Of a stretch of 35,007 nt of DNA, positions 127 to 5,344 are shown piece after piece. Position numbers and translations under genes: made by a program. Every line of letters begins with the position of its first letter. The stretch's first letter is position 1. The stretch spans positions 1 to 35,007 of the forward strand of contig JAFGVM010000083.1 of NCBI GenBank assembly GCA_016937995.1, given 5' to 3'. Under the pieces are notes generated by a model. That model was not told where the DNA came from. It made no database searches and worked only from the letters and a program-made list of their open reading frames with translations. The stretch is from Candidatus Delongbacteria bacterium (GTDB lineage: Bacteria; UBA4055).

Positions 127-1455
127 ATGTCTGCAAAATTCTTTTATAACAGCTATGCAAAATTCTCTAAAAGGGGAAGAAAGATCAGATTATCTGTAAC
201 CCCTTTTGGTCTGCTTGTTGTATCTATATGCATAATAAGCGGTTTTGCCGGTTTGAATTTAACAGTTTCATTTTTGTACAGACTGTTTACACTTTCTTTA
301 TCTCTCCTTATAATTTCTTACCTGTCCAGGAATAAAGATTTTGACAATATTCAGATAAAACTTTTTTTTTCTAAACAATTTCCTGTTGGAGAAAGGGCAA
401 AATACTTAATTAAAATTTACAACTACCGTAAGGCTGATATTCATGACATCTGTATTATTCCAGTGGTGAAGGAAATTATTCCGACTCTTGATGAGTTTGT
501 TAACGTAAAAGAACCGAACGAAGATAAAAGAAATATCTGGGACAGGAATGTTTATACTTACAGGTGGATGTGGCATATAATCAGATTATTTAAAGCAGAA
601 TTCCATGCGATAGATGTAAAAACTGTTAGTGCCGGTTCTTTTTATGAGTGTGATTCCGTTTTTGAACCAGTAAAAAGAGGGAAAATATATATTACCGGTG
701 TATTTATTACCAAGAAAGATATTTTTGGTTTGTTCAATACTTCTAAATATTTTGAACTAAATGAAAATATTACTATTCTACCCAGAAGATATGAGATCGA
801 TAAAAAAACCGTTAACAGTATCAAATCTGATATTGATAGAACAAAAAATTCATTATACAACATTTTGCATAAACATAAAACAGGTGATTTTATTGGACTG
901 CGTAGTTATGTTCCTGGAGATCCTATCAGGAATATACATTGGAAATCTTGGGCAAAAACAAACAGACCGACTGTAATAGAGAAAGGATTTGGTAAAGTAA
1001 ATGAATTTAATATTGTACTTTTTAATCTCATCAGCACCGAGAATAATAATTCTGCTATAAAATTCGAGGATTCTCTATCATTCGTATATTCACTGCTGGA
1101 ATATTTTTCTAAGAACTGGTTCACAGTTAACTTCTATTACTTTCATAAAAATGAATTGAAGAGTATAACGGCATGTAATGACAAAGGTAATTATCCAATT
1201 CTTAACGAGATCATCTGCAGGATCGACTATTATATAGTTGCTGAAATAGAAAAAATAACAAATCAGTTAAAAAAGAAACTGAAAAAACATTCAAATACAT
1301 TCATTATTCTAACTGAGGATAATGAAAATATCATTAGATCGATCAAGTATTTTGATCCGATTATTGCTTCAAACACCGATAAGGAAACTAATAAAAATAG
1401 AATGATAAGAATACCTGAAGTGAATACAAATGTTGAACAAATAACTATATTATGA
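127..1455 (+). CDS. DUF58 domain-containing membrane protein
   Basis: A 442-residue protein. Two hydrophobic segments near the N terminus (about residues 25-43 and 48-66) anchor it in the membrane, and the rest should be cytoplasmic. The diagnostic DUF58 motif is clear at about residues 258-287: SYVPGDPIRNIHWKSWAK followed by a PTVIEKGFG-type stretch. The C-terminal part resembles the vWA-like fold usual in this family. DUF58 proteins normally sit beside a MoxR AAA ATPase and a transglutaminase-like membrane protein. Here the transglutaminase gene follows with a 4-base ATGA overlap, and a moxR could lie just upstream outside the window. No clear Shine-Dalgarno is seen before the ATG, and a heptad repeat array ends 5 bases upstream. 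The biochemical role of DUF58 proteins is unsettled; an envelope role is inferred from context. Confidence 0.9.
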   Translation: MSAKFFYNSYAKFSKRGRKIRLSVTPFGLLVVSICIISGFAGLNLTVSFLYRLFTLSLSLLIISYLSRNKDFDNIQIKLFFSKQFPVGERAKYLIKIYNYRKADIHDICIIPVVKEIIPTLDEFVNVKEPNEDKRNIWDRNVYTYRWMWHIIRLFKAEFHAIDVKTVSAGSFYECDSVFEPVKRGKIYITGVFITKKDIFGLFNTSKYFELNENITILPRRYEIDKKTVNSIKSDIDRTKNSLYNILHKHKTGDFIGLRSYVPGDPIRNIHWKSWAKTNRPTVIEKGFGKVNEFNIVLFNLISTENNNSAIKFEDSLSFVYSLLEYFSKNWFTVNFYYFHKNELKSITACNDKGNYPILNEIICRIDYYIVAEIEKITNQLKKKLKKHSNTFIILTEDNENIIRSIKYFDPIIASNTDKETNKNRMIRIPEVNTNVEQITIL

Positions 1456-3365
1456 GAAAGTATCCTTTTCTAATATCTTTTGCTCTGCTATACTGGGGAA
1501 TAAATACAGACAATCTTCTTATTGCCCTTATTTTCATGATACTGCTAGAATCTCACAGACTGATCAAATTCAGATGGGATTTTTCAACTAATGATTTCAA
1601 CATGATATCCGTACTTTCAACACTGGGCTCGATTGGATATTTGATATACTATTCTAACTCATCTCAGGAAACCGGATTTATTTCCTCTTTTCTTATTTTT
1701 CTTCCAGTGTTATTATTTCCTCTTAATTTTTTTTATCTGTACAGCACTTCTGAAAATATAAATGCAAAAAAACTCTTTCTGTTGTTCGTAGTTAACAAGT
1801 ATTCAATAGTTCATCCTTATACAAAAAGGTTCAGACCTGATTATATTTTCTTTTGCAGTTTGTTGATAGGCGGGAGTATTTCAGCAGGGCTCTATTCCTT
1901 TCCTGTTATGATATTACTGATTCTACCGTTACTTTTTATCAACAGGTCACAGAATTATAAATTTATAACATGGTTCTTAAGTTTATTGATTGTCATTTCG
2001 ATCGCTTTGATACTGCAGATATCCATGTCAAAAACCTTTTACTTTATTAAATATCTTGCAACGGATATCTATATAAATAATTTCATGAAGCACACTAACC
2101 GGAACAGCACAATTGGAAGTATCGGTGATAAAAAAAATGACTATAGAATTGAATTAAGAATGAAAATTTATGATAACAATAAACCTTTTTATCATTTAAA
2201 AGAAAATATTTACAACTTCTATCATTTCGGAACATGGCAATCACACAAAAGTGAAAATAAAAATTTTTCTCAGATCTATTTTGAATACGGGAATACCAAA
2301 CTTGATTCTATGAGAATATTCTTCTTCTCATCCGGGAGAAGGTCCCGGGTAAAATCAAATTTTAAAACAAGTAATATTTCGGGTATAAGTGAAAATGATA
2401 TGAGCATGAATTCACTCGGTACTATTACCGTTAAAGACCCACAATATCTTGTTGATTATAAGGTTTATTCCAGAAAAGATCCTATAACATATCTTTTCGG
2501 TGATCCCAATGAAATTGACCTTCAGTTAAATCCGGTTGATAAAAATTTAGTTCAACCGATAATTGACTCTCTGGGCTTAAGAGAACTGCCATTCAAAAAG
2601 ATCAACAGAAAGTTATCAAATTATTTTATTTCAAATTATAGATATTCCCTGGATTACATAAAACAGAAAGATCATAGCAAGTTACAAAATTTTATTACTG
2701 ATAAAAAAGGTCATTGCGAGCTTTTTGCAACATTAACATGCCTGATATACAGAGAATTGGGTTATCCGAGCAGATATGTGACCGGTTATCTTGTCAGTGA
2801 GTACGATGACACAAAAGATCTATACATTGCCAGGCAGAAAGACAGACATGCCTGGGTCTATGCTAATGATAATGAGGGCAACTGGTTTGAATACGACACT
2901 ACCCCACCGGATATTTTTATGAACAGGTCCGGTTCCGGGATCTTGGGAGGTGTTTATGACTTTGTATCGAACCTGTATTATAAAGCTTTTCTATTCAAGG
3001 CTGAAAACAATGAATTATTCAAGAATATTTTACTCCTGTCAATAATCCCTTTAGCATTGTTTCTTCTTTACAGGATACTTCGTGGTGTAAGGTATAAAAG
3101 TGATATTAAAAAAAATACGATCATATCTCATTATGAAGTGATCAAGGAACTTTATCAGATCCGGGAAAAATTAAAAGATCCTAAAATAGATGATCATGAA
3201 ACTTTAGCGAAATGGTTCGAACGAATTGGAACTGGTCGCAGGAATGAGGAGATCGATAAGCTAAAGAATGTTCAAAGTTTATACTATAATAAAAGATATT
3301 TTCCTGAAGGATTTACAAAAGAACTTGATGAAAAATTAAAAAAATATATTGAAGACATAACTTAG
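1452..3365 (+). CDS. Transglutaminase-like membrane protein (TgpA type)
   Basis: A 637-residue integral membrane protein. The N-terminal ~190 residues hold about six hydrophobic segments. A periplasmic region follows with a transglutaminase core whose triad is visible: Cys422 in GHCELFA, His466 in RHAW and Asp482 in EYDTTPP. One more membrane helix lies at about 525-545 (ILLLSIIPLALFLLYRIL), and a short cytoplasmic tail follows. This is the TgpA/DUF3488-DUF4129 layout. The start overlaps the DUF58 stop by 4 bases, so translation is probably coupled. The family is thought to modify or cleave envelope proteins or peptides, but no substrate can be read here. The gene converges on murG with 29 bases between the stop codons. 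Confidence 0.9.
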   Translation: MRKYPFLISFALLYWGINTDNLLIALIFMILLESHRLIKFRWDFSTNDFNMISVLSTLGSIGYLIYYSNSSQETGFISSFLIFLPVLLFPLNFFYLYSTSENINAKKLFLLFVVNKYSIVHPYTKRFRPDYIFFCSLLIGGSISAGLYSFPVMILLILPLLFINRSQNYKFITWFLSLLIVISIALILQISMSKTFYFIKYLATDIYINNFMKHTNRNSTIGSIGDKKNDYRIELRMKIYDNNKPFYHLKENIYNFYHFGTWQSHKSENKNFSQIYFEYGNTKLDSMRIFFFSSGRRSRVKSNFKTSNISGISENDMSMNSLGTITVKDPQYLVDYKVYSRKDPITYLFGDPNEIDLQLNPVDKNLVQPIIDSLGLRELPFKKINRKLSNYFISNYRYSLDYIKQKDHSKLQNFITDKKGHCELFATLTCLIYRELGYPSRYVTGYLVSEYDDTKDLYIARQKDRHAWVYANDNEGNWFEYDTTPPDIFMNRSGSGILGGVYDFVSNLYYKAFLFKAENNELFKNILLLSIIPLALFLLYRILRGVRYKSDIKKNTIISHYEVIKELYQIREKLKDPKIDDHETLAKWFERIGTGRRNEEIDKLKNVQSLYYNKRYFPEGFTKELDEKLKKYIEDIT

Positions 3366-3394: not shown

Positions 3395-5344
3395 TTATAC
3401 TTCGAAATCTTTGATCAACTGTTTAAATTTAAATACAGGAGAAAAACCGGTAGTTGTCTGCAGTATCCTGTGTAAAAATCCGTCAATAGTAGCCTTATCC
3501 TCAACAATACCTCTGTGATTCAAGTCCAGCAAAGCTTCAATTACTGCCTGTCTGACATTATTATTCGTGTTGAAGAAAATATGTGAGAATTTATTGAACT
3601 CGTTAATGTTCTTTATGAATTTTGTGTATGCAGCAACAGCGTTAATAACTATCAAAAAATTCTTATGCTTCAAAAGCCTTTCCACTTCTTTGATAATTTT
3701 TTCGTTTCCTTTTAAATTCTCAGAAAAATGACATACGTTCAGTAATCCTTCAGATACAGTTTCAAAATAATTGTCACTCAATGAATTCAGAATATCCTTC
3801 TCAACAGTTTCATTAAACCTTCCGATCTGTCTGTAAGATGTCATTATATTTCTTCTTATGAAACTCACCTGCTGATATTCACCACCTAATATCCTCTGAA
3901 TAAGTGAAACCTTTGTTTTATCATTGAATAATTTGTGTAAAAAAGGTAACTTTTCTTCAGCATAGGTCAGACCGGAGAGTTTCACAGCATAATTTCTTAC
4001 CTGCCATGAATCCGAATTGAAATAATGGCTAGTTCTATAGCGCAGATATTCAAGGTACTTGTTACTTATTACTTCATCCTTTGTCATTGATGAAAGAATA
4101 CTGATCAACTTGACAGCCCCATAATTCGCATATGGATTTTTTTCTATGATCTCTTCATTTGGATCTTTCGTGATATTATTATTGATTATCTGCACAATGA
4201 ACTCATAAATCTTATCAGTGCCTGAATCCTTGATATATTTCCTTGCATTTTCCTCAAGCTCAAGGATCCTGTCCCTGTTGTTGTAAAGTTCTCTTAATTT
4301 ATCACTCAGTTTTTTCCCGCTTACCATCACTGCAAATTCGTTATTGTCAATGATTATATCTTCATAAATCACTTCTGCCGCACCTGCATCTTTGATATTC
4401 TCAGCATTGATTACCTGATGATCTCCCGACAGATTTGCTTTCGGTATTATCAATGATGCCCTACCGCAAACTGCGATCTCATTAATAGTTCCTCCACCTC
4501 TTGTTATGATAAGATCTGCAGCTTTGTAATAATCTTTGATATTATCTGCATATTCCAATCTGCTGTAAAAAGGAAAGTCCTTTTCATCTATTGAGTTATA
4601 ACCGAACCGCCTTATTGTGTCAAGAACTCCATTATAAGCAGTAGTACCTTTTCCTGTAACATGTATAAGCTTTAGATCAGGCATATCCTTAATAAATTTC
4701 AAGCTGTCCACTATACTTCTGTTTATCGTTCTTGCACCCTGAGAACCTCCAACAGCAAAGACTACAAATGAATTTTCATCTATACCAAGTCTGTCTCTGG
4801 ACTCCTTCCTCGACCCATGCTTGAACTCATCTCTGACAGGATAACCTACATACTTACCATTTTTTTTAAAATATTCCAGACAAGATCTGTAGGAAAGCCC
4901 TACACCGTCACACATTGGACCTGCTTTTCGGATCATTTTACCCGGTTCAGCGTTAGCTTCATGCAGGAACAATTTAGCTTTGGTTAATTTGAACTTTCTT
5001 AATAGTCTTCCTGCAAATATAGGCGAAGCTGAAACAAATCCGCCTGTTCCAATAATTATATTGGGCCTGAAAAATATAATGTGGTAACAGCTTTTAAAGA
5101 CTCCTAAAAACAATGACAGTATGAATGTAATGAACTGTAAACTGAATTTTGAACCCGGAAGACCTGATGCAGGAATATACTTTATCTTATATCCTTTTGC
5201 CGGAACTATCTTTGATTCGATCTTTCCATAAGCTCCGATATATAAAAATTTAGCATCTTTATCTTTTTCTTTGATATGTTCCGCTATGGCAAGTGCGGGA
5301 TAAACATGTCCCCCTGTGCCTCCACCTGTCAAAATATATTTCAT
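3395..5344 (-). CDS. murG: UDP-GlcNAc:lipid I GlcNAc transferase MurG with C-terminal HEAT-like extension
   Basis: MurG adds GlcNAc to lipid I to make lipid II on the inner face of the cytoplasmic membrane, a GT28-family step in peptidoglycan synthesis. Family motifs are present in order: GGGTGGH (residues 7-13), IIGTGGFVSAS (about 97), HEANAEPG (about 128, usually HEQNA), VGGSQGA (about 195), ITRGGGTINEIA (about 280) and GDHQVINAEN (about 308). MurG is normally about 360 residues, but this protein has 649. The extra ~255 residues are helical with HEAT/armadillo-like repeats, for example DSWQVRNYAVKLSGL, SFIRRNIMTSYRQIG and NVRQAVIEALLDLNHRG. No stop or frameshift separates the parts. The gene stands alone here rather than in a dcw cluster with murC/ftsW. 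The MurG call is firm; the role of the extension is unknown. Confidence 0.95.
   Translation of the reverse strand: MKYILTGGGTGGHVYPALAIAEHIKEKDKDAKFLYIGAYGKIESKIVPAKGYKIKYIPASGLPGSKFSLQFITFILSLFLGVFKSCYHIIFFRPNIIIGTGGFVSASPIFAGRLLRKFKLTKAKLFLHEANAEPGKMIRKAGPMCDGVGLSYRSCLEYFKKNGKYVGYPVRDEFKHGSRKESRDRLGIDENSFVVFAVGGSQGARTINRSIVDSLKFIKDMPDLKLIHVTGKGTTAYNGVLDTIRRFGYNSIDEKDFPFYSRLEYADNIKDYYKAADLIITRGGGTINEIAVCGRASLIIPKANLSGDHQVINAENIKDAGAAEVIYEDIIIDNNEFAVMVSGKKLSDKLRELYNNRDRILELEENARKYIKDSGTDKIYEFIVQIINNNITKDPNEEIIEKNPYANYGAVKLISILSSMTKDEVISNKYLEYLRYRTSHYFNSDSWQVRNYAVKLSGLTYAEEKLPFLHKLFNDKTKVSLIQRILGGEYQQVSFIRRNIMTSYRQIGRFNETVEKDILNSLSDNYFETVSEGLLNVCHFSENLKGNEKIIKEVERLLKHKNFLIVINAVAAYTKFIKNINEFNKFSHIFFNTNNNVRQAVIEALLDLNHRGIVEDKATIDGFLHRILQTTTGFSPVFKFKQLIKDFEV

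Follow-up and report, generated by a model that had tools for sequence, protein, structure and literature searches.

A HEAT-type domain fused to MurG in Candidatus Delongbacteria and its linkage to a distinct MraY subfamily in other bacterial phyla

The murG locus and its reading frame

The window, meaning the whole stretch of DNA analysed, was 35,007 bp of a Candidatus Delongbacteria genome (contig JAFGVM010000083.1, assembly GCA_016937995.1). Its minus strand encodes a MurG whose ORF is extended by about 255 residues, from about residue 392 to residue 649, and the C-terminal HEAT-type domain of this ORF is named EXT here. Two plus-strand ORFs at positions 127-3365 are convergent with murG and presumably encode a DUF58-type protein and a transglutaminase-type membrane protein. 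The coordinates of the fusion gene and of MurJ-containing loci in other genomes are listed in Table 1.

Table 1. Features of the fusion gene (positions in the window) and of related loci containing murJ (positions in the named locus).
Feature	Position	Strand	Remarks
murG-EXT fusion gene	3395..5344	(-)	ATG start, 649 aa ORF; in-frame homologues in 13/13 genomes of the phylum
MurG glycosyltransferase, residues 1-383	4196..5344	(-)	TIGR01133 residues 2-383; Pfam GT28 N and C; PDB 1f0k
Variable linker, residues about 384-429	4058..4195	(-)	Low conservation
EXT, putative HEAT-type solenoid, residues about 430-649	3398..4057	(-)	HEAT_2 in 33/34 aligned members; profile matches alphaRep/PP2A-A; all-helical AF2 model
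WxxxN (W447, N451) in EXT	3992..4006	(-)	Both residues in 31/34 members
FxRRN (F495-N499) in EXT	3848..3862	(-)	F495 and R498 34/34; F and N together 31/34
DxYxE (D524-E528) in EXT	3761..3775	(-)	Y526 and E528 34/34; D524 31/34
C-terminal PxFxxK (residues 635-641) of EXT	3422..3442	(-)	P636 29/34, F638 28/34, K641 26/34
MurG-MurJ-EXT fusion, then mraY	L083 7034-11008; L182 3927-7895; L183 2814-6800		1323-1329 residues
murJ directly upstream of murG-EXT-mraY	L090 2742-4610; L092 3314-4924		G330, G198

The murG model TIGR01133 matched the ORF with 205 bits (E 1.6e-60), a score below the model cutoff of 250.25, and the match covered model positions 7-353 of 353. Both GT28 domains, PF03033 (90 bits) and PF04101 (82 bits), were above the Pfam cutoff at residues 4-142 and 194-366. 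Alignment to 1f0k placed H13, E289, Q310 and N313 of the window MurG on H19, E269, Q288 and N292 of E. coli MurG, which, with the GGTGGH motif, are active-site residues. Judged by these matches, the MurG part of the ORF is complete, ending at about residue 383. Since the fusion ORF was the single MurG match found in the genome of the window, it is very likely the lipid II synthase of this organism. The initial annotation, which described MurG followed by a HEAT-like extension of about 255 residues, was borne out, and the domain boundary it placed at position 4160 (about residue 395) was correct to within the linker.

EXT was in frame with MurG in all 13 genomes of the phylum Candidatus Delongbacteria, which answers in the affirmative the question of the initial annotation whether the lineage shares the extension; two of these ORFs (G008 and G009) were cut by the contig end. 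The Delongbacteria sequence GLR157 (L031) showed 81% identity; it is probably the contig already present as G001 and was not entered as an extra case beside the 13 genomes.

Repeat family and fold of EXT

The window extension alone matched HEAT_2 with an E value of 4e-4, which is below the Pfam cutoff. Among the members of a 34-member EXT alignment, HEAT_2 was matched in 33 and HEAT in 29 at E<1e-3, with a best HEAT_2 value of 1.5e-21. A search with the extension alone had been suggested at the outset, and the family profile indeed found HEAT proteins in the PDB, namely the designed alphaRep HEAT proteins (4.5e-29) and also Integrator subunit 4, PP2A-A and adaptins. By these profile matches, EXT is a member of the HEAT-repeat family.

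The AF2 model of EXT alone was all-helical and weak (mean pLDDT 61) and that of the full-length fusion was unusable (pLDDT 36). Fold searches with the weak EXT model returned HEAT/ARM chains at the top, with a best Foldseek E value of 0.027, and the VIA fold comparison also gave HEAT/ARM chains (best Z 11.0, rmsd 9.9, 124 aligned); neither result is significant alone. A membrane tether as the main role of the extension was set aside, short of exclusion, as it reads as soluble helices.

Distribution and gene context of EXT

EXT was not confined to Delongbacteria. It was found in 36 genomes elsewhere, in at least five further phyla, a phylum count that leaves out seven families. The search of 386 genomes gave 38 matches at E≤1e-6, comprising 13 from the own family, 23 others and two weak generic HEAT matches (G173 and G324). 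Searches within phyla showed EXT in 9/39 genomes of the phylum of G019, and in 3/4, 3/7, 3/6 and 4/8 genomes of the phyla of G054, G362, G105 and G268, respectively. The matches in G173 (L098) and G324 (L097) and a second match in G268 were partial and were omitted from the EXT count; no mraY was seen near those of G173 and G324.

Probing of the loci with E. coli dcw proteins showed mraY directly downstream of EXT on the same strand, with abutting or overlapping frames, in all 36 EXT genomes outside Delongbacteria. The gene preceding mraY was a MurG-EXT fusion in 24 of these genomes and a MurG-MurJ-EXT fusion in three (G362, G425 and G426), while in another three (G105, G377 and G428) EXT was encoded separately, with murG on one side and mraY on the other. 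In the remaining six (G054, G367, G236, G268, G127 and G431), a separate EXT preceded mraY and murG was not adjacent; five of the six have a normal-sized MurG elsewhere, and no MurG was found in the genome of G431, which is 78% complete. These six genomes, with EXT and mraY and no adjacent murG, make mraY the constant neighbour of EXT. Overall, EXT was joined to MurG in 40 of the 49 EXT genomes.

The three genomes with MurG-MurJ-EXT represent three genera of family f237. The fusion of G362 matched Pfam MurJ at 1.3e-89, and those of G425 and G426 had a MurJ match and the MurG start in the same frame, so that a lipid II synthase and a flippase would be held in one polypeptide.

In Delongbacteria, mraY followed EXT in only two of 13 genomes (G004 and G007), and EXT was covalently on MurG in the other 11. 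The mraY gene has moved away from the murG-EXT locus in at least 10 of the 13, and none was found in G010. No third gene common to the EXT neighbourhoods was found. Two ORF clusters, covering 18 and 10 loci, were set apart because their example frames look antisense or shifted over mraY or murG, and no other cluster reached more than 6 of 34 loci.

Two further observations were made at these loci. The dcw cluster of G054 (L106) reads murE-murF-murD-ftsW-murG-murC without mraY at the usual place, and its mraY lies with EXT at L076. In G063 (L040), the start of the MurG frame carries VNHGGLTA twice as a short tandem-like repeat, in the N-terminal region that would be expected to hold the glycine motif.

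Two sets of EXT-negative genomes were used as controls. The first comprised 30 of the 348 genomes without an EXT match in the 386-genome search; mraY was found in 28, with an upstream dcw neighbour of murF in 23, murE in one and none in four. The second was drawn from phyla that also contain EXT genomes and comprised 28 of 30 EXT-negative genomes of the G019 phylum (without G091 and G098) and two of the G362 phylum. Again 28 had mraY, preceded by murF in 19, by murE in eight and by no dcw gene in one. Neither murG nor EXT was upstream of mraY in any of the 28 loci of the first set or the 28 of the second. Inspection of ORFs by eye and a profile search showed no hidden EXT beside mraY of G014, G020, G022 and G029, which had no upstream dcw gene within 1.5 kb.

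The MraY subfamily of EXT genomes

All five of the EXT-genome MraYs scanned with the NCBIfam mraY model (TIGR00445) scored 256-312 bits against a cutoff of 192. The residues D115, D116, N192, D195 and D267 (E. coli numbering) were kept in 47 of 47 sequences. The PxHHHxExxG motif is described as highly conserved in the fifth cytoplasmic loop of MraY, with a proposed role in substrate specificity (PMC5039524). Its HHH was intact in only 3 of the 45 EXT-genome MraYs that were readable at the motif (those of L121 and L044 were not), compared with 27/27 and 28/28 in the two EXT-negative sets, from which G031, with an MraY split over frames, was left out. The third His was mostly Thr, Ala or Ser, M321 was replaced by Arg in 40/45 and E329 by Gln in 29/45. 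At the level of single loci (L119, L111 and others), an altered PxHHHxExxG loop was seen with the catalytic residues kept and often with NFADG replacing NLTDG.

The three MraYs that kept HHH belong to one genus, g133 (G142, G279 and G407), and the EXTs of these genomes are the only three of the 34 without W447, N451 and N499. This paired exception comes from one lineage and is a hint only.

Phylogeny of MraY and MurG

In the MraY tree, the 47 EXT-genome rows formed one side of a branch with an SH-aLRT support of 100; G001, whose mraY is divided between two contigs, and G010, for which no mraY was found, were left out. The split persisted (46 versus 50 rows, support 100) once the tree also included 27 rows for EXT-negative members of the EXT phyla. 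The five very divergent controls L141, L146, L148, L149 and L150 were excluded from this second tree, as were L121 and G072 (two pieces), and G031 was excluded from the control trees. Within the G019 phylum, and even inside family f50 (G063 versus eight others), MraY type is therefore tied to EXT rather than to species. In the MurG tree, one clade (99) held every fused and every mraY-adjacent MurG, and the MurGs distant from a separate EXT grouped with the dcw type; the row L017_CTL in this tree is G054 itself and no true control.

Genomes with a separate EXT branched first on the MraY tree, and the simplest history would begin with EXT beside the variant mraY, after which murG was brought adjacent, the fusion arose and mraY left the locus in most Delongbacteria. 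The trees were quick searches with midpoint rooting and this branching order is a suggestion. In addition, because the EXT MraYs form one clade, neither the 36 adjacencies nor the motif change can be counted as independent events, and joint inheritance as a cassette could explain them.

Proposed function of EXT

Gene context, co-inheritance and the changes in MraY sequence single out MraY as the likely partner of EXT. Four roles had been offered for the extension in the initial annotation (membrane, division or elongation machinery, MraY and envelope sensor), and it is the MraY role to which these three lines point; from them we infer physical binding of EXT to MraY, its site and the hand-over of lipid I. 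We propose with moderate confidence that EXT is a dedicated cytosolic partner of the distinct MraY subfamily which, where it is carried on MurG, tethers the lipid II synthase to the lipid I synthase. Stated more broadly, EXT on MurG probably holds MurG and MraY together or serves MraY directly. A separate EXT would bind MraY from the cytoplasmic side, with the surroundings of the altered fifth cytoplasmic loop as the most plausible site, and a putative WxxxN-like groove of EXT could hold a cytoplasmic segment of MraY. On the C-terminus of MurG, EXT would keep MurG at MraY, and lipid I would be handed straight on and converted to lipid II. Counting against the tether are the weak AF2 models, the absence of mraY from the locus in most Delongbacteria and the fact that E. 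coli carries out the MraY and MurG steps without an EXT-like domain. An interaction of MurG and MraY has itself been reported in E. coli (PMC5039524, PMC6420597). Also in favour of the tether is MurJ, which shares the polypeptide in three genomes and is encoded directly upstream in two.

Alternatively, EXT may act chiefly on the variant MraY, as its subunit or regulator. It would then support or gate the active site of an enzyme in which the PxHHHxExxG loop has lost its third His and its Glu, with the MurG fusion being only a convenient supply in fixed ratio. This would suit the six genomes with a separate EXT beside mraY and no adjacent murG, the early branching of separate-EXT genomes and the loss of HHH, which goes hand in hand with EXT even in the one genus that is exceptional for both. 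We consider it possible but rather unlikely, as it leaves unexplained why EXT is joined to MurG in most EXT genomes and why the fusion was kept where mraY moved off.

HEAT/ARM solenoids are general protein-binding scaffolds, and EXT could bind some other target, such as the Mur ligases, MreB or division proteins, or another membrane protein, and recruit MurG or MraY there, the link to mraY being positional. Contacts of MurG with MurD, MurE, MurF and MreB are reported in other bacteria (PMC6420597). Such a target is doubtful, however, given that no third gene is common to the EXT neighbourhoods and that EXT follows the MraY type within phyla.

It is still less probable, and in our view very unlikely, that EXT is a passenger in an operon that was passed on whole, by inheritance or by transfer, and is adjacent to mraY by history without contacting MraY. 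The single clades of EXT MraYs and of linked MurGs mean that the adjacency may have arisen once, but it was kept in at least five phyla besides Delongbacteria and along long branches, despite the changed state of the gene (separate, fused or with MurJ inserted), and the invariant F495, R498, Y526 and E528 (34/34) show selection on EXT. Finally, a frameshift, sequencing or assembly error near position 4160 that joined two genes, which the initial annotation asked to be checked against separate-gene homologues, is virtually impossible: such homologues do exist, in nine of the 36 EXT genomes that are not Delongbacteria, but the same in-frame fusion in 13/13 phylum genomes and 24 others has already refuted it, and the fusion is genuine.

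Taken one step further, and tentatively, EXT would be an as yet undescribed accessory subunit for making lipid I, present in at least six bacterial phyla, which co-evolved with a second kind of MraY with a changed HHH loop. Its joining to MurG, or to MurG and MurJ, would then make a two-polypeptide lipid II assembly line in some lineages. As targets for antibiotics, MraY and MurG are essential and almost universal; the transfer of lipid I between them is not settled. The natural MurG-EXT proteins with their separate-gene relatives, and MurG-MurJ-EXT, offer a ready system for tests of direct coupling, and an MraY subfamily whose HHH loop has changed bears on the purpose of this motif and on inhibitors that bind there.

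Comparison with known systems

In the open-licence literature, no description was found of a HEAT domain on MurG or tied to MraY. The combination of MraY and HEAT repeat returned only cohesin, that of MurG and HEAT repeat returned eukaryotic proteins among the matches listed, and open-licence titles on Delongbacteria peptidoglycan included nothing on a MurG-HEAT fusion.

EXT belongs to the same repeat class as bacterial HEAT proteins such as YibA (1oyz; Pfam HEAT_2), but differs from them in its own invariant residues and its fixed linkage to mraY. The ARM groove of importin-alpha, in which WxxxN is reported to bind extended peptides (PMC3885797), has the same aromatic-xxx-Asn spacing as two EXT repeats (W447-N451 and F495-N499). 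Importin-alpha is an ARM protein, whereas EXT is HEAT by sequence and has two such pairs only, so this likeness is a lead and no test of homology or peptide binding.

The catalytic part of the fusion is that of MurG proteins in general (TIGR01133, GT28), to which about 255 C-terminal residues are added, and the fused and mraY-adjacent MurGs form a clade separate from the dcw-type MurGs. Known fusions of peptidoglycan enzymes, described as MurE-MurF of Bordetella, MurG-MurC, MurB-MurC, MurC-Ddl and MraY-MurG (PMC6420597), likewise place pathway partners in one polypeptide. Unlike these two-enzyme fusions, the fusion polypeptide in the window has MurG as its only enzyme. Its other part is a HEAT domain, not an enzyme, which elsewhere is a separate neighbour of mraY; MurJ is added in three genomes. 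The passage of lipid from MraY to MurG has been explained by affinity gradients in a native-MS study (PMC9046198), and an EXT fusion would instead achieve it by physical means. Bordetella MurG is likewise described as an organising centre for Mur proteins, as an oligomeric scaffold (PMC6420597); it does this by oligomerisation, whereas the window MurG would do so by an added solenoid domain.
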